64,000 bases of DNA from Craspedostauros australis (lineage: Eukaryota > Bacillariophyta > Bacillariophyceae > Mastogloiales > Achnanthaceae), in contig JAMXDE010000046.1 in the NCBI GenBank assembly GCA_026770025.1, forward strand, positions 490,953-554,952, given 5' to 3'. The notes beneath the pieces were generated by a model. That model made no database searches and was not told where the DNA came from. It saw only the letters and a list, made by a program, of their open reading frames with translations. Shown in pieces: positions 366 through 62,034 of the stretch (position 1 is the stretch's first letter; every line of letters begins with the position of its first letter). The position numbers and the translations under genes are program-made.

Positions 366-1474
366 ATGAAAGTCTTCGGAAACCAGCGAAATGCTTCCGT
401 GATCCTTGCCGGACTCTGCCTGTTGATGGCAACATCCAACGCCTTCGTGACGCCAGGCAACGGCAAGGGTGCGACGTTCGTGTCATCGCCGCAGCAACGG
501 CCGTCCTCATTCCTGAAGAAGAACATCCACGATTCTGCGAACCAACGAAGCGACGGCGTGAACTTGCACTTGTCCGATGACGGCAAGGAGACTACTTGGG
601 ACCGCATCACTGGTCCAAAGCTGTTCAAGACAGTCACCAACTGGCAGGGGATCCACTCCGTGCCCCTCGTCCCGCTGCGCATCCTCACGGGGTTGCTCAT
701 GATCCACCATGGATCCGAAGGTGGCGTGGGTCCGGCCAACTTTGGTGAGTTCGTGCATTGGATTCGATCTCACGGATCTGTTGTATTGCGTGCATGCATG
801 CATGCATGCTGGGTTCATTTGCTTGGATGGGACGGGCGATGCATCATTTTACAGCGCACCACTCTACAACTCGAAATCAACACTGTTCAGCGCAACTTGC
901 TCAACAACGAAGCACTACGACTCTGCCATTCACAACTTGGATCATCGAACTAACCAACTGCTCTGTCTTGCAATGCTCGAACACAACCGTATGAATCTTC
1001 ACATCCATCGGGTTGGTGATAATGGCCATGTTGTGTCCCACCATTTCATTGGTCGATTCATTCGTATGTAATATGAATGCATGACCGTCCTCAGGCACAC
1101 CCGAATTCCAAGGATTCATTGACTACATCATCACACCGTACTTTGGCTTCCTCCCAGGACCGCCGGAACTGTGGTCGGCGATTCATGATTACGTCGAGTT
1201 CTTCGGCGGTGCATTGTTCGCGATTGGATTCCTGACCCGCCCAGCGGCCTTGTCGCTGTTCGTCACCATGCTGTCCGCTGTGTACTTCCACCTGTCGGCC
1301 GCCGGAGCGCAGGGTTTCCCGCTCGGACACGTCGCCAACTATTCGTACGATTTTGAGGAGCCTCTGCTGTATGCTCTCATCTTCCTCATGTTTTGGTTCA
1401 ACGGCGCTGGCCCACTATCTGTGGACTCCATCATCTACAAGAGCATCTCCAACGAAGATGAAGATGGTGCGTAA
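366..1474 (+). CDS. plastid-targeted DoxX-family membrane protein
   Basis: Two exons, 366-744 and 1095-1474, joined through a GTGAGT donor and a CTCAG acceptor; the frame closes to 252 aa. The N-terminus has a hydrophobic signal peptide ending SNAFVTP. An Ala-Phe at the cleavage point followed by a Ser/Arg-rich stretch is the diatom plastid-import signature, and LHLSDD near residue 67 may mark the mature end. The rest has about four hydrophobic segments. The sequence LRILTGLLMIHHG, followed by FFGGALFAIGFLTRPAA, fits the DoxX/SURF4-like membrane family. DoxX proteins are linked to respiratory or redox membrane functions, but the plastid members have no settled role. The intron carries a (GCAT)n run. 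Family call is from motif memory, not a search. Confidence 0.75.
791..809. repeat. (TGCA)n microsatellite inside intron
   Basis: About five tandem TGCA units lie within the single intron of the DoxX-like gene. The run is self-complementary and could form a cruciform. Confidence 0.8.
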
Positions 1475-2421: not shown

Positions 2422-4247
2422 ATGATCCAGCTGCTGCTCACAACCGCGCTGTCTCTTCTCTGCGTCGCAGAAGCATGGGCCTTTTCGGCTTCGGCAGGAG
2501 GGAGAAGATCAGGGCTGCAGCAGCAACTTCAGCTGCAACAGCAGCAGTGTCACCGATACGGCATCGCACCCTTGCAAATGGTGGAGTCATCCTCGTCCAC
2601 CAGCGACCATCTGTCACCTGGCGTGCAAAGCATTGAAGAGGCCAACGCGGACCTCCTCCAGATTCTCGGTCGGTTGCGCCAGAGCTCGTACTTTCGATTA
2701 TACAGCGTCGACATCTTGGCCAGCTGCGAGTACATGCCGCAGGAATTGTTCGAATGCTACAGCGAGACCTGCGAGATCTATCCGGTGGACGATGAAGAGG
2801 TAGGCCATCATCAAGGGTTCTGCACTTGCGTTCGCAGTGAGGTTGCTTGCGGCTTGCGAGGAGTGCTGCACCGCGTGATCGGGTATACAAACCGTGCGGA
2901 CTGGCTGATTGACAAGTTGCTTCGCCTTTGGCATGGGGTGTTTCATGATGGTGATCGATCGACCGCAGCATGCATGCTTCGCTTCGCCACAATACTTCAT
3001 TCCTTGGTGGAATGGCGGACGAGCCAGCGAACTTTGCTGGTGATGTGCTCTCGCGATGCATGCTTCGCGATCATGCCAATCGCATTCTATGCTTCAGTCT
3101 GTGCTACATTCTGAGCGTGTGCAGAATATGGGTACAGGACGTATGTATGTCTGTCTCTGTCCACCTAAACCCGTATCTCTTGATTGTCACACAATGCTCA
3201 ACTTCTGTTGTCGTCCTCACAAAATGGCTCTTGGTCTGGCATGGGCAACAACACAATGGGATGCAATGCCATACAATCGCATCCGACACATTGAAATGGT
3301 TTCCATTCCCCATCAACATGTGCCGCAAAACACACCACATCATATCACATCACACAACATCGTGCGATGCCGCTCAACACATGTCGCGCATACGTTGACA
3401 GGTCCCAGCCAAAATCAGGGGCATAGATCACTTCGAGCACGAATTCGAAATTGATGGATGGGCACGATGGGACATGCCGAGCAACGATTACTACGACACT
3501 GAAGAGTTCCCAGAGGATTACACAGGATACGACGGGGCGGAGGTGTGGAAGTTTATCCACAACCGTTTATGTTTCAGCGAATACGGCTACGATGACGATC
3601 ACTGGAAGGCAGATTTCAACAAGGCCGTGTCCGGCCTCCATTCCGTGATTTCGGCGCAGGTCGTCCGAGGCATCCGAGACAAGGCAGACAGGGGCGAGGC
3701 ATTCGATGCCGACGAGGTGTGGACGGACGCCGAGTTGGAGTACCAAAGACGGCTGAGCCCCTCCGGCGAAACGCCCAAGGCCTCCGAGAATCTATTCTTC
3801 GCCTACATGCTGGCTTTGACCGCCGCAACCAAAGCGAAAGACCGACTGCTGGAGGATTGCGACAATGCTCGCATCGATGCCGAAGTCGTGGGCGACATCC
3901 AGCTGCTTCTCAGCCATCCCATCTTCAGCGACGCAAGCATCGGTGTCGCGGCCGAGAAGCTGCATGCGGACGCCATGAAGGACTTGGAGTCCGACAATGC
4001 GCTTTGGGAGGCCAGGATGCGCACCCGAGAGCTGCTGAGGATAATGAACTGCGTGCAATGCAACAAATGTCGGTTGCACGGCAAGATCTCCATGATGGGC
4101 CTATCTACGGTATTCCAAATACTCATGGGCCGATCGGGCGAGGGCGGTGACCCCAACAGAGTCCACCGCGTGGAGCTTGCAACGCTCATCTCCACCCTCT
4201 ACAAATTCTCCAGAGCCGTTGACCTCTGCAGCCAGATGAAGAAGTAG
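2422..4247 (+). CDS. ERO1: ERO1-like thiol oxidase with plastid-type leader
   Basis: Two exons, 2422-2799 and 3402-4247, with GT-AG ends and phase 0, give 407 aa. ERO1 is a FAD enzyme that reoxidises protein disulfide isomerase and passes electrons to oxygen, normally in the ER lumen. Visible hallmarks are the shuttle pair in ECYSETC followed by DDEEVPAKI, spanning the exon junction; W-x-F-I-H-N-R-L-C-F; and the catalytic CxxCxxC as CVQCNKC followed by RLHGKISMMGL. The protein is shorter than animal or plant ERO1 (about 460-470 aa). The leader is unusual: a signal peptide ends AWA-FSAS, followed by an Arg/Ser/Gln-rich, acid-poor stretch and APLQM, like diatom plastid precursors. The enzyme family is clear; the location is inferred. 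Confidence 0.85.
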
Positions 4248-4379: not shown

Positions 4380-4553
4380 ATGGAAGATTCTCGTGGCACG
4401 TTCGATTACTATTATGCGCAGACCTTCCTGAAGCATCGCAAACGTCTGAAGGCCGAGGAAGCAACAGCACGCTCCATGGAGTACTTGGAGAAGGTGCTCA
4501 AGGCCGCCGCAGAGAATCCGGGCAGCAATGCCATTGACTACAACATCGCATAA
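4380..4553 (+). CDS. possible 57-aa small protein
   Basis: This frame opens with ATG and runs 57 codons to TAA, with an in-frame TGA upstream that fixes the start. The product is charged and predicted helical, with Tyr-rich DYYYAQTFLKHRKRLKAEE near the N-terminus and a second Glu/Lys helix after it. I do not recognise it. It lies between ERO1 and ELP5 on the same strand and could equally be a 3' UTR frame open by chance. Confidence 0.25.
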   Translation: MEDSRGTFDYYYAQTFLKHRKRLKAEEATARSMEYLEKVLKAAAENPGSNAIDYNIA

Positions 4554-19260: not shown

Positions 19261-21435
19261 TCAAGCAAGAGTGGTCACGTAGTCGACAACATCAGTGTGG
19301 CCCCATTTTTCCGCAATGTCCAGCGCAGTGTCGCCATCGATATTCTTGATGCTGATGTCTGCGTTGCACGATTCCACCAAGTACTTGACGACCTCCAATC
19401 TACCATTCCAACTTGCCCGCCAAAGTGGTGTACTGCCATTCTTGTTTTGAATGTCGATTTCTGCGTTGCCTTGTTCAACTAAATACTTCACGACCTCCAA
19501 GTTGCCATGAATGCTCGCAAGGTGCAGTGGAGTGCTGCCATACTTGCTGGTTTTGATGTTGATATCGACCTTGCCTTGTTCAACCAACGACTTCACAACA
19601 TCGAGATGACCATCAGCACTGGCGCGATGGAGGATGGTGGAGCCATCCTCGTCTTTCACGTTCAAATCGACATTGGGTGTTCCGATGAGATACTTGACAA
19701 TGTCGACGTGATTGTTATGATATGCCTTGAAGATTGGAGTCTCGTGTTTGTCGTTCTCAGCGTTGATATTGGCCTTGCCGGATTCAACCAGCCACTTCAC
19801 AACATCGAGATGGCCATTGCCACTTGCGAGATGGAGCACGGTGTTGCCATCCTCGTGTCGGGAGTTGGGATGCATGCTTGGTGTTCCGATGAGATACTCG
19901 ACAACGTCGAAGTGGCTGTTGCGATATGCCTTGTAGAGTGGAGTCTCGCACTCATGATTCTCAGCGTTGATGTTGGCTTCGCCTTGTTCAACCAGCCACT
20001 TCACAACATCCAGATACCCATTCTGACATGCGAGATGAAGCACGGTGTTGCCATCCTCGTGTCGGAAGTTGGGATATATGCTTGGTGTTCCGATGAGGTA
20101 CTTGACAATGTCGAAGTGACTGTGACAATATCCCACATAGAGCGGAGTCTCGCACTCATGATTCTCAGCATTGATGTTGGCTTCGCCTGATTCCAGCAAA
20201 TGCTTCACAACATCGAGATGCCCATGCGCGGCTGCAAGATGGAGTGCAGTATTGCCAGCCTTGTTCTCGGCGCTGACTTTGATGATCGCTTTGCCTGAGT
20301 CCACCAAAGGCTTCACCACATCCAGACGACCTTCAGCACTTGCGCAGTGAAGGGCAGTGTTGCCGTCGTTATTCTTGGCGTTGCCATCCACCTTCAGATC
20401 GTCTGACTGTATCAAGTACTCCACCACATCCAAATGACCTCCAGCACTTTCGCAGTGAAGCAACGTGTCGCCATTCTCGTCTTTGGCATTGATGTCCACC
20501 TGACCTGACTCCACCAACCATCTCACAACATCCAGATGACCTTTGGAATATGCAGACTGAAGAGCCGTGCCGCCAGCTTCATTCTCAACATGAACATCTG
20601 CCTTGCACGACTTCACCAGATACTCTGCAACATCCATATGCCCATTTCTGTAAGCAACATGAAGCGCGGTATCGCCGTCATTGTTCTGGACGTCGATGGC
20701 CACAGTACGAGCCTCCATCACATACTTCAAGATATCAAGATGACCCTTCAGACACGCATTGTGGATCGCAGTATTGCCAAATTCATCTTGAACATTGATT
20801 TCCACTCCACATGATCCAACGAGGTACTCCACAACATCCAAGCGTCCATGAAGACATGCGGCATGGAGGGCATTCTCACCCTTCTCATCTTGCACGAGAG
20901 CGCTTGCAGAATATGACTCGATCAGAGTCTTCACGATGGCCACATGACCCTCGGTACATGCGTCGTGGAGTGCTACCTTGCCGAAGTTGTCCTGGAGGTT
21001 AACATCTGCAGCATGCGACCCGGCCAGGTATTCCACGACATCAAGGTTGCCCTGTGCGCATGCATAGTGTAGCGCAGTCTCTCCATCCATGGATTGGGCA
21101 TTGACGTCTGCTCCGCATGACTCCATCAACTGTTGGATCGTTTCAAGCTGGCCGTTGGAGCATGCGAGGTGGAGCGAAGTCTTGTCGCGGTCATCCTTGA
21201 TCGTGTCGATGAAGGTTTGTGGAAATGCTGTCTTCCATGCGGTGAGGATGTCCACATCTCCTTGTTCTGCGGCGCGCAGAAGATCCTGGTCGGTGACGGT
21301 CGGGTTGGATGCATCACCAGGGGTCGACTTGAGCGAAAGGAGAGATGACCATTTTGCGGTTTGTGTTGACGAAGCCCGGAGGTTGCGCAATGGTGAGGTG
21401 GACAGTATAGCGAGTCGTGGAAGGATGAAGACCAT
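19261..21435 (-). CDS. large ankyrin-repeat protein, possible mitochondrial leader
   Basis: Single exon. I choose the ATG at 21435 (724 aa) because it opens MVFILPRLAILSTSPLRNL, an Arg-rich, acid-free amphipathic stretch typical of mitochondrial presequences; an in-frame ATG at 21639 would add 68 basic residues. After about 60 residues come roughly 19-20 ankyrin repeats of about 34 aa, each with the G-x-TALH-A-x-x-G-H-L-D-V-V-x-x-L-V-E-S pattern, up to the C-terminus. Neighbouring repeats such as NINAENHECETPLYKAYRNS occur almost identically two or three times, showing recent internal duplication. Ankyrin arrays bind proteins; the partner is unknown. Confidence 0.8.
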   Translation of the reverse strand: MVFILPRLAILSTSPLRNLRASSTQTAKWSSLLSLKSTPGDASNPTVTDQDLLRAAEQGDVDILTAWKTAFPQTFIDTIKDDRDKTSLHLACSNGQLETIQQLMESCGADVNAQSMDGETALHYACAQGNLDVVEYLAGSHAADVNLQDNFGKVALHDACTEGHVAIVKTLIESYSASALVQDEKGENALHAACLHGRLDVVEYLVGSCGVEINVQDEFGNTAIHNACLKGHLDILKYVMEARTVAIDVQNNDGDTALHVAYRNGHMDVAEYLVKSCKADVHVENEAGGTALQSAYSKGHLDVVRWLVESGQVDINAKDENGDTLLHCESAGGHLDVVEYLIQSDDLKVDGNAKNNDGNTALHCASAEGRLDVVKPLVDSGKAIIKVSAENKAGNTALHLAAAHGHLDVVKHLLESGEANINAENHECETPLYVGYCHSHFDIVKYLIGTPSIYPNFRHEDGNTVLHLACQNGYLDVVKWLVEQGEANINAENHECETPLYKAYRNSHFDVVEYLIGTPSMHPNSRHEDGNTVLHLASGNGHLDVVKWLVESGKANINAENDKHETPIFKAYHNNHVDIVKYLIGTPNVDLNVKDEDGSTILHRASADGHLDVVKSLVEQGKVDINIKTSKYGSTPLHLASIHGNLEVVKYLVEQGNAEIDIQNKNGSTPLWRASWNGRLEVVKYLVESCNADISIKNIDGDTALDIAEKWGHTDVVDYVTTLA

Positions 21436-21639
21436 GATGGAGCTGGCGTGTTTCGAGATGGAACGGCTTGTTGCTGAGATCAGATCAATGCGACGGTTTT
21501 TTCGATGTGATTTGAATGATTGTTTGGCTGGTCGTAGTCGCTTGATCGCATCTCTGTTTGCCTTTATGAGGCTGGTGGTCTGTTTCATGGTCATTGCTGG
21601 TGGTATCCCGTGCTCCGTTTCACCCAGCGTGCATGGCAT

Positions 21640-22745
21640 TCCGTTGATGACTGTTTCACGATGTTTTTCGTTTCACATTGTTACCGTGATGTCGCTGTGA
21701 TCACCCGATCTACTTTGGCATCAACGTGAACATCAGCTTGAGCATTGGCTTGAACATTGTCTTGAACGTGATCGTGGCCGTGGCCAGCCACAGAAGGAGA
21801 AAGTTGATCGTGGGCGCAGGTGTCGGAAGTCATCATTGTCCCAACATCCTTGGAACGTGGAGACGATCGAGGATCCTGCGAGCGTGGTACGACTATGTTG
21901 CAAAGAATGCGAGTCGACACGAATCTGGAGAAACCGCTGGTGTTCCGTGTTGGATCGTGCCCGCTCTGTGGCGCCGAAATTGGTCACGGCCATCTTCGCC
22001 ACTGCTGCTGTTGTTGTTGTTGTTGTTGTTCTCATCTGTTTTCCAGGAAGGTACGATGGATCGGTTGCGTCCTCATAATAGTGCCATGGCGACTGATGTC
22101 CCTCCTGAATGTAATTCTCTGCGTTTACCTGGACGAGAGGAAGAACACGGCGGAACTGCTCGTGCCGTGGGATCTCCGGGTGCTGATGCTAATACTTCGA
22201 ATCTCTCTACTCGGAGGTCGATACTTCTACTGGTATCACTTCTGTTGGTACCACTTCTACTCGTATGCACATCATCATTGTATTTGTTGCAGCGTCGTCA
22301 GTTCCGTGGCTGGTGGTGCAATGGGACATCCATGATCGTCAGACGAGTGCTCATCCCACGCCACGCTTGTCCTTGCTCTCGGTGTCATTCTTGTTCTCAC
22401 GATGTTGTTGTCGGGTCGTTCATTCACGAATCCGTTTCTCTCTTCGACATTGAGTCACGCGATGCACTCAATCAACGTTCACCCAACGGTCGCTGCGAAT
22501 CTGGCCACTGCCGCCATTTCCATCATTGTCATCATTGCCGTCGTTGCCATCATTGTCATCATTGCCATCATTGCCATCACTGCAGTCATAGCACAATACC
22601 AGTCAGTGCCGAGGCTGGTGCCAATCAAAGGCACGCGCAAGAGGAAGCGGTATCGCACCATACCATACCACACCACACCACACCACACCATACGTACTTC
22701 ATCCTGATCGCAGTGGTGTGCGCACTGCATTGGCTCAACAACACA
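21640..22745. other. unresolved stretch with GTT and ATC repeats
   Basis: A long + frame is open across this region, but its protein is low-complexity (poly-Leu from GTT repeats at about 22010, CHH repeats from CATCATTGC units at about 22500-22590). Short hydrophobic stretches exist in other frames. I cannot support a gene here. Confidence 0.35.
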
Positions 22746-57935: not shown

Positions 57936-59667
57936 GTTGCTGGTGGTGGTGTTATCGATGATGATATTCGTTGCTTTGCTTTGCTAGTTGCTGAGTTGCT
58001 TTTCTTAGTTGATTGCTTTTTAGTTGTTGCTGTTGCTGATTTGTGAGATGAAGAATGGCAGATACGAAGACACTTGAGAATCTCACACGATGGAGATGCC
58101 ACGAGATGAATGAGGATTCATTGTCAATGCAGAGAGTGGCACCCTCTTGCAAGTAGAGAGTGGGTGCTGCAATCTCTCGCACTCGTAGTTGTACGAGTAT
58201 GTTACGGTAGTCGACCAAGGATCAGCAAGGAACGATGCACCATGCACCATTCACAATCCAAGATACAAGATGCTCCTGATGCATGTGAAGCATGATGCAC
58301 ATGTGCATGATGTATCTGTATATGTATGATAGATCGCATTATATGTTCATGGGAGCACCTTGGCACGATCGTTTTTGATACTGCGCAGGCATTCGACAAG
58401 AGGGATCGGCTTTGTTCGGCATCTTCAGGGATGTCGCAGGTTCTCAAGTCACCGTTTCCCTTGGTGGAGGGATCTTTACGGTCTTCGAAGTATCCATAGG
58501 TATTGGTCCTCTCGTTCATCGATGATTCATGATGCAACCACCGCAGCCATGATGATCACGATGGTCAAGAGGGAGAATCGGAGTTGACCCGAGCATGATG
58601 GCGATGTGCGTGCGGCGATGTTGTTGTTGATGACATCTTGCCCTCTTCCTGCTTCTCTCTGTTGTTCTTGGTCTGTTGTGGCGACACTTTTGTTCTGTGG
58701 ATATTAGCGTGTTCTACTTGAGTCAATATGAAGCGGTTCAAAGAGTGTTCCGATTTAACAAATCAACCTCTGTTATTGTTGTTCGTGTTCGAGTCTGTCG
58801 AAATCGAACATTCTGTGATATGCGGTAAATACAGACATGTCAACATTCCAATGAATACTGTGTCTCAAGAGTGTCCGATTGCCAACAAACAAACAAGAAG
58901 CAGACGCCAGTTTGACCCATTCGATCAAGTTGCAGAACATCACAGAAACGGCGGGAATGAATCCTTTCGCCCAACAACAACGCAACAGCGCAACAACGCA
59001 TGGAAGCTGACCGCAGAATTCCCAAATCGACACGACAAGGAACAAGCAACAGAACCGCGTCTTAGTCCTCCGACTGTTGCCACCACCGCGATGATGGCCG
59101 TCCACAAGAGAAGATGATGTGGGCGTCCACGTGCGAATACTCGCACCATCATGGCGACCCACATAACCAATATAATCCGCACCATCAATAGAAAGAACTG
59201 CAGGAGCAGCGAAGACAGAGATTTCCCACAGTGATTTGCGAGGTCAGCCGCGAACATCACATCACATCACATCACATCACATGACAACAGGACACTGGTG
59301 GCGAAGAAGATCAGGCACGGCACTCTCCTCTTCGGCGGTCTCCCTTCATCCCACCAGCAGGATCAAGCAAGCAAATCTTGTCCTCCCTTCCAGCTTCTCC
59401 CGTCATCTTCGCGTATCGTGGACGTTTCTGATCGCCGTGAGCACACCGCCACTATCCTCCGGACGATACACAAGTGAGTGACGGTCCTCATCCACTCTTG
59501 CCCAATTGATTGGTTGTTTGGTCGGAGGGAATGCTTCCATGGTTCCGATGAACAGGGCGATGAATGATTCATCATCACCAAGGCTAACACCACTGCCTCA
59601 TCGCCTTTGTCTCGTTTATTTCCATTCATCGACACGAACGCACTGTGTTGGATGAGGTTGTGCAGAG
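57936..59667. other. intergenic
   Basis: No supportable gene. A frame at 58728-59117 (129 aa) is basic and Thr-rich without motif. A self-complementary TGCACATGTGCA lies in a longer imperfect palindrome near 58290-58312. An ATCAC run lies at about 59256-59280. Confidence 0.45.
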
Positions 59668-62034
59668 ATGTCTGATCTGGGCCGAGCTTCGCACGGCGCC
59701 AACAAAAAGGTTGGTCATGAGACAGACCGATCGAATGGACCCGACGATGATCTCCCACGGGACGGATATGGACGAACAGAGCTCATGCGGGCTTGTCGTG
59801 ATGGAGATGTTTGGAAGGTCGAGATTCTGATTGAAGCAAGTCCCTTGCGTATCAACGGCAGTCTCACCGACTTCAACGGCTTCACGCTGTTCCATCACGC
59901 ATGCTGCAGCAAAAACTTAGACGTTGTGGAGTACTTGGTTGAATCCACGCAGGTCGATATTAACCCAAATGCGCAAACCAGAGACATGTACACGCCATTG
60001 CACTTTGCATGCCTGTACAAATCTCTCGACGTGGTCGAGTACCTCTGTACAACGAAGGAACTTCGCATCGATCAGTTCCTTCGTGACCATAACGGTGACA
60101 TGCCAATTCACATCGCGTGCGCAAACAGGGATCTTTGTGCGCTGAAGTGCCTGGTGCAGGCTGACCGGACGAAGACAGTTTGCGACACAACGGATAGGAA
60201 TGGCCGGACGGCACTCCACTATTCATGCGGATACTTCAACAAATCGATGGCGGAGTGTCTCATCAATACCTGCCAATCTAGTCTTGATGTCAACATTCAA
60301 GACAAGGACGGCCGGACACCAGCCCATCACATGTCTCAATTGATGGATGGCCAGTTGATGGAACTTCTGCTTCGAAAGGATCAAGCCTACGTCGATCTCA
60401 CCGTCGCGGACAACAATGGCGAGGCACCGTTCCACCTGGCTTCCAAGAGTGCACCGAGAGAGGTGATTGAGCTCATGATGACATCGACCAAAGCGAAGAC
60501 CGACCTGGAAAGAACGAACGAGTCCGGTCAAACGCCATTCCACTGTGTGTGCATGAATTATGATCGGGGTGTGGCTTTTTGTTTCGCCCAATTGGACCTC
60601 GCTTCCATTGATTTCAGCGCACAAGACAAGCAAGGCAATACTCCGATCCACTACGTGTGCGAAAGAGGATTTACTGGCTTGATGAGAGGCTTGGTGGCAC
60701 TCGCATTGGAGCAACTCAACGACGCATTCAGCATTCAAAACAACGCCGGTGAGACGCCATTCCATTGTGCGTGTAGGAATAGAGGTGATGGAGAAGATTT
60801 CATCCAGTACCTCATGGAATCGGACCAAATCAAAATTGATTTTGATATCCATGACACGAACGGCAATACACCATTCTATTCCGCCTGCAAATATGGCAGT
60901 GTGGGCGTCGTGAGCTACTTGATTGAATCGAGTGAAGTTGATGGCAGCGTCTATACAAGAGACAGCACCGGTAACACACCGCTCCATAGTGCATGCGCCA
61001 GATATGGTGAAGACTTGGTGGAGTACCTTCTTGGGTTGGACGAAGACAACATCGGCATGACATTGCAAAATGACGATGGCAATACACCTCTTCATCTGGC
61101 GTTAATGGAAGACAGCATTTCTTTCCTTTGGTGCATCAACGAGAACGAAGATACGTATTTCGACATGGAACTCCAGAACAACGATAGGGACACGCCGCTT
61201 CATCTGCTGGTGCGATCCGGCTTTCCCAATCATGCGGATTGGTTGGCTGATATTGCGTCTCGTGATATCGATGGTACCATCCGAAACGACAACGGCAATA
61301 CTCCGCTCCATCTCGCGTATATGAACGCCAGACCTTACATGCTCGACGCGCTGCTCGAGTTGAACAACCTGAAGGTGGATGTCAATGCACAGAAGAATGA
61401 TGGCAACACCGCCCTCCATCTTGCATATCAAAATGAGTCATTGCATTTCCTCCAGGATAAGTACTTGGATGGATTTCACGAAGATTGTTTTGATATTACA
61501 ATTCAAAACAACCATGGCGACACCCCAGTCCACTACTCCAAGAAGGATCACAGAGTGCTTGCCGTCGACCAAGAGATGAAGCTCACGAAACTCTACGATC
61601 AAATCCAAAAGGAGATAATTCCGAATCGTAACTTGGATCAAGGCCGCACCGTCGAAAGGGGAGATGCGATAGATCGCTTAATCACATCAGCACAACCATT
61701 GGCCGATATGAAGAACAAGAACGGCGACACACCAATGCACCACGCAGCCAGCAACGGGTTTCTCAAAATGGCAGTGTCTCTGATTAAATCAGATGGAGGA
61801 GTGGATGTGAGCATTCAGAATCGTCATGGTGATACACCGTTGCACGTGGCAAGTTGGAATGCTGGAAAGCGAGTGATTGAAGCATTACTCAACAGTGCGG
61901 GCGTGATAATTGATTTGGATATCAAGAACAACGCCGGCGAAACTGCGATGGGCATCGCGAAGACGAAAGGGCACAGTGACATCGTTGCATTGTTGGGAGG
62001 ACGAAGGCGGAGAAAGCGCATCAAGTTCATGTGA
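59668..62034 (+). CDS. large ankyrin-repeat protein, 788 aa
   Basis: Single exon. After an acidic leader (MSDLGRASHGANKKVGHETD), about 20 ankyrin repeats fill the protein. The first is RTELMRACRDGDVWKVEILI. Later ones alternate canonical (GNTPLHLAYMNARPYMLDAL) with longer, irregular spacers, so units are 34-38 aa rather than 33. The last repeat (NNAGETAMGIAKTKGHSDIV) is followed by a basic tail, GGRRRRKRIKFM, a likely nuclear signal. Fragments related to its 3' end (11132-11443) and N-terminal third (50770-50968) lie elsewhere in this window. Unlike the gene at 19261 there is no targeting leader. Ligand unknown. Confidence 0.8.
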   Translation: MSDLGRASHGANKKVGHETDRSNGPDDDLPRDGYGRTELMRACRDGDVWKVEILIEASPLRINGSLTDFNGFTLFHHACCSKNLDVVEYLVESTQVDINPNAQTRDMYTPLHFACLYKSLDVVEYLCTTKELRIDQFLRDHNGDMPIHIACANRDLCALKCLVQADRTKTVCDTTDRNGRTALHYSCGYFNKSMAECLINTCQSSLDVNIQDKDGRTPAHHMSQLMDGQLMELLLRKDQAYVDLTVADNNGEAPFHLASKSAPREVIELMMTSTKAKTDLERTNESGQTPFHCVCMNYDRGVAFCFAQLDLASIDFSAQDKQGNTPIHYVCERGFTGLMRGLVALALEQLNDAFSIQNNAGETPFHCACRNRGDGEDFIQYLMESDQIKIDFDIHDTNGNTPFYSACKYGSVGVVSYLIESSEVDGSVYTRDSTGNTPLHSACARYGEDLVEYLLGLDEDNIGMTLQNDDGNTPLHLALMEDSISFLWCINENEDTYFDMELQNNDRDTPLHLLVRSGFPNHADWLADIASRDIDGTIRNDNGNTPLHLAYMNARPYMLDALLELNNLKVDVNAQKNDGNTALHLAYQNESLHFLQDKYLDGFHEDCFDITIQNNHGDTPVHYSKKDHRVLAVDQEMKLTKLYDQIQKEIIPNRNLDQGRTVERGDAIDRLITSAQPLADMKNKNGDTPMHHAASNGFLKMAVSLIKSDGGVDVSIQNRHGDTPLHVASWNAGKRVIEALLNSAGVIIDLDIKNNAGETAMGIAKTKGHSDIVALLGGRRRRKRIKFM

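Follow-up and report, generated by a model that had tools for sequence, protein, structure and literature searches.

Erv1/ALR and QSOX are thiol oxidases with FAD; they belong to family PF04777 and differ in this from ERO1. In plants, ERO1 is assigned to the ER and LTO1 to the thylakoid, and further disulfide-generating enzymes, yet to be identified, are considered possible; Arabidopsis LTO1 is described as a thylakoid membrane protein that serves lumenal proteins (review PMC3800646). In yeast, Ero1 can pass electrons to Osm1, with fumarate as the final acceptor in place of O2. The two proteins bind only weakly (Kd about 150-200 uM), and the authors regard direct flavin-to-flavin transfer between them as controversial (PMC6242907).

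The window analysed here, 64,000 nucleotides of the diatom Craspedostauros australis, forms the terminal part of contig C44 (490953-554952) in an assembly of 74.8 Mb and 90 contigs, and it contains an ERO1 gene. Its product resembles yeast and human ERO1 in family, in the Cx4C shuttle, in the CxxCxxC active site and in many aligned core residues, but it differs from them by a plastid-type leader, by an Asp in place of a conserved Arg and by the lack of a counterpart to the human regulatory cysteines. With LTO1, a plastid VKOR-thioredoxin oxidase that has a probable representative in this genome, it would share the role of a disulfide-generating plastid enzyme, although the two belong to different families. 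A second ERO1 gene, on contig C48, recalls the yeast Ero1-Osm1 pair by combining ERO1 with an Osm1-like fumarate reductase; the yeast proteins are separate, whereas the C48 protein is one chain that also includes a cytochrome b5 domain. ERO1 itself is known, and the compartment and the fusion in the paralogue are the part that looks new. Among the matches listed in the PMC literature, no paper describing an ERO1 in plastids or a fusion of ERO1 with fumarate reductase came up. None of the diatom-related ERO1 papers in PMC, judged by title, deals with a plastid ERO1, and nothing in this literature was found to combine ERO1, fumarate reductase and cytochrome b5.

Read without splicing, the frame that starts at the first base of the gene is interrupted by stops. 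Joining the two exons (Table 1) yields a single frame of 407 amino acids with its sole stop at 4247; the splice is deduced from the frame, which is kept by three GT-AG donor-acceptor pairs, and the canonical donor was picked. In the spliced protein, Pfam ERO1 (PF04137) covers residues 79-400 with 148.3 bits (cut-off 27), spanning positions 3-352 of the 354 in the profile. It is the only Pfam family in the protein, and a VKOR domain is absent. Exon 2 alone matches ERO1 with 118 bits and exon 1 alone with 24.3 bits (E 7e-4, below the cut-off). The exon 1 match and the leader share one open frame, in which no Met lies between the preceding stop and position 2422; the leader therefore belongs to the ERO1 gene. 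All PDB matches at E up to 0.001, six distinct sequences, are ERO1 of human or yeast, and viral, bacterial and archaeal contig collections held no relatives of exon 2 or of a four-sequence ERO1 alignment. Folding of exon 2 alone without an alignment was uninformative (mean pLDDT 38).

Table 1. Features of the window and of the C48 paralogue; unprefixed positions are those of the window, and arrows mark cleavage sites.
Feature	Position	Strand	Basis
DoxX-family gene, exons about 366..744 and 1095..1474, leader MATSNA↓FVTPGN	366..1474	+	Pfam, sequence
ERO1 gene, two exons, 407 aa	2422..4247, stop codon included	+	spliced translation, Pfam
Exon 1: leader and first ERO1 segment (structural Cys102, shuttle Cys112/Cys117)	2422..2799	+	frame, Pfam, alignment
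Putative signal peptide, residues 1-20, end A-W-A	2422..2481	+	by eye, rule of PMC4329603
Transit-peptide-like stretch, residues 21-52, F at +1, zero acids, 3 Arg	2482..2577	+	rules of PMC4329603, PMC12136025
Stromal-processing-type site L51-Q52↓M53-V54-E55	2572..2586	+	consensus of PMC3774753
Intron GTAGGC...TTGACAG	2800..3401	+	inferred from frame
Exon 2: bulk of ERO1 domain including active site	3402..4247	+	frame, Pfam, alignment
D165; Arg in yeast, human and C48 paralogue	3516..3518	+	alignment
C343-V-Q-C346-N-K-C349: active-site CxxC with structural Cys before it	4050..4070	+	aligned with yeast, human ERO1
C48 fusion gene, 1256 aa, single open frame, no intron	L004:4213-7983 = G000:C48 about 255212-258982	+	Pfam

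Precursors of diatom plastid proteins carry F, W, Y or L at +1 behind the signal peptide (PMC4329603), and plastid leaders are distinguished from periplastid ones by a start of 15 residues free of acids, the first three of them being uncharged (PMC12136025). Stromal processing follows a pattern of Leu at -2, a small or amide residue at -1, Met, Ala or Ser at +1, Met being followed by Ser, Ala, Val, Thr or Gly, and acids downstream; stromal transit peptides are 12-42 residues long, with a mean charge of +2.6 and on average 18% Ser and 14% Thr (PMC3774753). The leader of the window ERO1 reads MIQLLLTTALSLLCVAEAWA↓FSASAGGRRSGLQQQLQLQQQQCHRYGIAPLQ↓MVE, i.e. signal peptide, transit part and mature start, with the signal-peptide cleavage site AEAWA↓F set by eye. 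It has F at +1, and the transit part begins with FSA, which is uncharged. The putative transit peptide of 32 residues contains three K/R (all Arg), no D/E, three S/T and nine Q, and is thus net positive and free of acids in its early part. The acid-free run that follows the signal peptide extends over 34 residues, for which the chance at this given place is 0.0011 at the acid content of the mature protein, a value to be read with the caveat that the mature ERO1 part has itself one acid-free run of 36. The site L-Q↓M-V-E agrees with the stromal processing pattern and departs from it in a Pro at -3, where Ala or Ser is usual; by eye, no hydrophobic thylakoid signal lies behind it. In Ser/Thr content the transit part falls far below the published mean; a high content is a statistical trait of such peptides and not an absolute one.

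From these properties the leader reads as a bipartite leader of the plastid (stromal) type. The sequence-only reading had proposed an ERO1 with such a leader, and gene, family and leader were confirmed at the level of sequence. It had further described the transit part as an acid-poor Ser/Arg/Gln stretch with APLQM; the acid-poor character and APLQM stood, whereas Ser makes up only 3 of the 32 residues. A related reading would place the enzyme in the periplastid compartment or between the envelope membranes, where it would oxidise factors of protein import in a role comparable to that of mitochondrial Erv1/Mia40. An oxidase makes more sense there than in a reducing stroma, and plastid and periplastid precursors share a common route. 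The two signals are also close, because the exchange of one amino acid was enough to redirect a protein from the periplastid space to the plastid (PMC12136025). Still, F at +1 and the acid-free first 15 residues are plastid and not periplastid marks according to the same source, and a motif of the stromal-processing type is present, so that we consider this location decidedly unlikely.

Leaders encoded in the same genome served as controls. The light-harvesting family PF00504 has 61 matches, exon pieces included, and the one protein tested is of the diatom type, being nearest to FCPI-17 of PDB 6ly5. At 21 of the 30 loci read a leader was found, and in all 21 the signal peptide ends at an F or close to one. 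For L024-L027, L030 and L032 the best site of the script lay four residues further on and the AAA↓FAPA site was picked by eye; for L023 the script gave both sites, from different starts, and in L017 the script site and F are separated by seven residues. Of the 43 places of the thioredoxin family, 30 were read by eye, 18 of these also by script, with intron links deduced. At +1, nine carry F and four carry R, R, Y and T; seven others are F-less leaders of the secretory type, and the remaining ten places lack a usable leader. Where the script offered several starts (L041, L046, L047, L049, L053, L064, L065), the one with the best continuation into the thioredoxin domain was picked; L047 and L064 were counted as secretory, and for each of them a rejected script start had F at +1. 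Peptidases of the S10 and C1 families, selected by family alone, contributed ten upstream stretches and six leaders (four S10, two C1), none with F at +1. L081 and L087 had no leader, L088 and L089 were dropped for doubtful sites, and for L086 one of two frames was taken.

Thus, 13 secretory controls (six peptidases, seven thioredoxin-family proteins) could be compared with 18 plastid-type leaders (eight distinct light-harvesting proteins, LTO1 and nine thioredoxins; redundant copies and L017 excluded), both sets being partly circular because the sorting of the thioredoxin family, including seven of the 13 secretory leaders, leaned partly on the leaders themselves. F at +1 occurs in none of the 13 secretory leaders. 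The acid-free run behind the site measures 0-15 residues in the secretory and 3-46 in the plastid-type set. In the sets that were labelled without regard to the leader, the ranges of light-harvesting proteins with LTO1 (3-17) and of peptidases (0-15) overlap, owing to the short transit peptides of light-harvesting proteins; the 34 residues of the window ERO1 exceed both. A home-made matrix of 25 positions was built from the 18 plastid-type leaders, with positives scored leave-one-out. On the full matrix the window ERO1 scores -3.1, where positives range from -15.0 to 29.0 and secretory leaders from -28.4 to -1.9. It thereby exceeds 12 of the 13 secretory leaders but only two of the 18 plastid-type ones. 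Over the 20 residues behind the site it scores -2.1, above all 13 secretory leaders (maximum -3.6) and three of the 18 plastid-type ones. The motif L-x-M-[SAVTG] within 52 residues of the site is present in the window ERO1, in two plastid-type leaders (L019, L049) and in no secretory leader, two of the 13 being covered for 43 and 35 residues only. Taken alone, the predicted plastid address of the window ERO1 is likely.

A family search of the genome yielded three ERO1 matches at two loci, the window gene and C48:255590-256939; no third ERO1 locus was found in this search. The C48 protein contains the Pfam domains ERO1 (residues 127-576), FAD_binding_2 (688-1137) and Cyt-b5 (1183-1240), and its middle part has yeast fumarate reductase 5glg as best PDB match (E 1.4e-76), i.e. 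it is Osm1-like. Counted from the Met at residue 48, the leader reads LIRA↓LDSPTRL; a start at the first Met would instead turn the N-terminus into a signal anchor. ASAFind accepts L at +1, but D at +2 and the low matrix score of -27.4 make a plastid address of the C48 protein unlikely. Its presumed shuttle cysteines, C206 and C221, form a Cx14C instead of a Cx4C motif. The sequence-only reading had asked whether the genome has a second ERO1 with an ordinary ER leader. A second locus exists: C48 is without a plastid-type leader, but it encodes an ERO1-fumarate reductase-cytochrome b5 fusion and no ordinary stand-alone enzyme.

These data also bear on the view that the window ERO1 is the ordinary ER enzyme, with an accidental F at +1, and the C48 fusion a specialised second enzyme of the ER. 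ERO1 is assigned to the ER in PMC3800646, and an ER whose other ERO1 has a Cx14C shuttle might need one of normal build. The four WCGHC proteins among the 30 thioredoxin-family places read (of 43) all look ER-type, and no plastid-type PDI with WCGHC was found among these places; L047, whose rejected script start was mentioned above, is one of the four. Against this view, no secretory control shares F at +1 with the window ERO1, and acid-free runs in those controls end at 15 residues, as compared to 34. A genome without any other ERO1 would also speak for the ordinary enzyme, and this does not apply because the C48 locus was found. Overall, we regard an ER location as unlikely, and the plastid reading as partly supported by the sequence.

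When the window ERO1 is aligned with its paralogue on C48 and with partial ERO1 sequences of human and yeast, Cys102, the shuttle cysteines Cys112/Cys117, Cys343 and the active pair Cys346/Cys349 are invariant. The window ERO1 therefore possesses the shuttle Cx4C, the active-site CxxC and the structural pair C102/C343 of the family. The conserved FAD contacts of ERO1 are presumably those known in yeast as R187, W200, S228, G229 and H231. W175, S203, G204 and H206 are invariant across the window ERO1, C48, human and yeast proteins, while D165 occupies what we take to be the position of the FAD contact R187. A search of PMC6238587 for FAD-contact residues gave no hit. One could conclude that the window ERO1 is plastid-targeted yet not an O2-dependent oxidase, but a thiol carrier or a decaying protein with weakened FAD binding, as D165 and an identity of just 23% with the C48 paralogue might suggest. 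With its catalytic and structural cysteines and the four invariant residues kept, and with an intact spliced frame, this is very improbable. For the human enzyme, we assume Cys104 to be a regulatory cysteine. Nothing in the window ERO1 could match Cys104 or Cys131 because the stretch from C117 to C183 is devoid of Cys; Cys131 is described as regulatory in PMC3800646.

We propose that the window ERO1, an ERO1-type flavoprotein thiol oxidase, would enter the ER through its signal peptide, would then be imported over the remaining plastid membranes, and would be cleaved at L51-Q52↓M53 to act in the stroma of the complex plastid. Cys112/Cys117 would take up electrons from a thioredoxin-fold partner and hand them on to Cys346/Cys349 and FAD and then to O2, with production of H2O2, which would supply disulfides in a compartment that produces its own oxygen. 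Candidate partners are the thioredoxin-like proteins L059 and L061, which have plastid-type leaders and the active site WCKSC, not WCGPC. Plausible uses are stromal thiol oxidation in the dark or in high light, or the folding of imported proteins. Location, FAD binding, partner, acceptor and physiological role are all properties that we infer. Taken as a whole, the proposal of a thiol oxidase that works in the stroma with O2 and with thioredoxin-like partners has in our estimate a probability of roughly 0.58. The stroma is reducing in the light; this and D165 make us less confident of the oxidase chemistry in vivo than of the plastid address. If correct, the stroma-addressed ERO1 is a concrete candidate for a further disulfide-generating enzyme.

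In the C48 protein, two partners known from yeast to bind weakly are naturally fused, and by analogy it would represent the Ero1-Osm1 pairing made permanent. It predicts an ER able to form disulfides with fumarate as acceptor. A tentative and rather doubtful extension is that the two ERO1s serve two acceptors: the stand-alone plastid enzyme would use O2, and the ER enzyme, fused to fumarate reductase and cytochrome b5, would form disulfides without O2 and keep oxidative folding running in the dark when oxygen is lacking. The plastid copy would then be an ERO1-based disulfide source, perhaps kept from the ER of the red-algal endosymbiont.

Other thiol oxidases are encoded as well. VKOR has three matches in the genome, and one of them, L005 (on G000:C18, strand -), combines VKOR with thioredoxin behind the leader AAA↓FAPASS, and looks like an LTO1-like enzyme with a plastid-type leader. 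The window ERO1 was considered as a replacement of LTO1, and this was rejected in view of L005; absence of another plastid oxidase is not the explanation because this LTO1-like protein is encoded. The Erv/ALR domain (PF04777) has six matches, none at the window ERO1 locus: one on C35, three on C53 and two on C50. The C35 match and the three on C53 look like QSOX because their open-frame lengths equal those of thioredoxin matches, and the two on C50 are pieces with no thioredoxin match nearby. The three C53 matches lie within 20 kb (G000:C53:178365-199644, strand -) and probably form a cluster of three QSOX genes. Among the thiol-oxidase leaders read, a set outside which the C50 gene and most QSOX lie, LTO1 and the window ERO1 have a plastid-type look.

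Pfam matches were obtained for six of the 20 window frames that were run, and 14 had none. The DoxX-family gene lies about 950 bases upstream of ERO1 on the same strand and has a plastid-type leader, MKVFGNQRNASVILAGLCLLMATSNA↓FVTPGN; it is a neighbour of ERO1 and at most a putative member of the same system. Directly downstream of ERO1, 4380..4553 (+) is an open frame of 57 amino acids without a Pfam match, either a gene or a product of chance. Two long open frames with ankyrin repeats are located further along the window, at 19261..21672 (-, 803 aa) and 59656..62034 (+, 792 aa).
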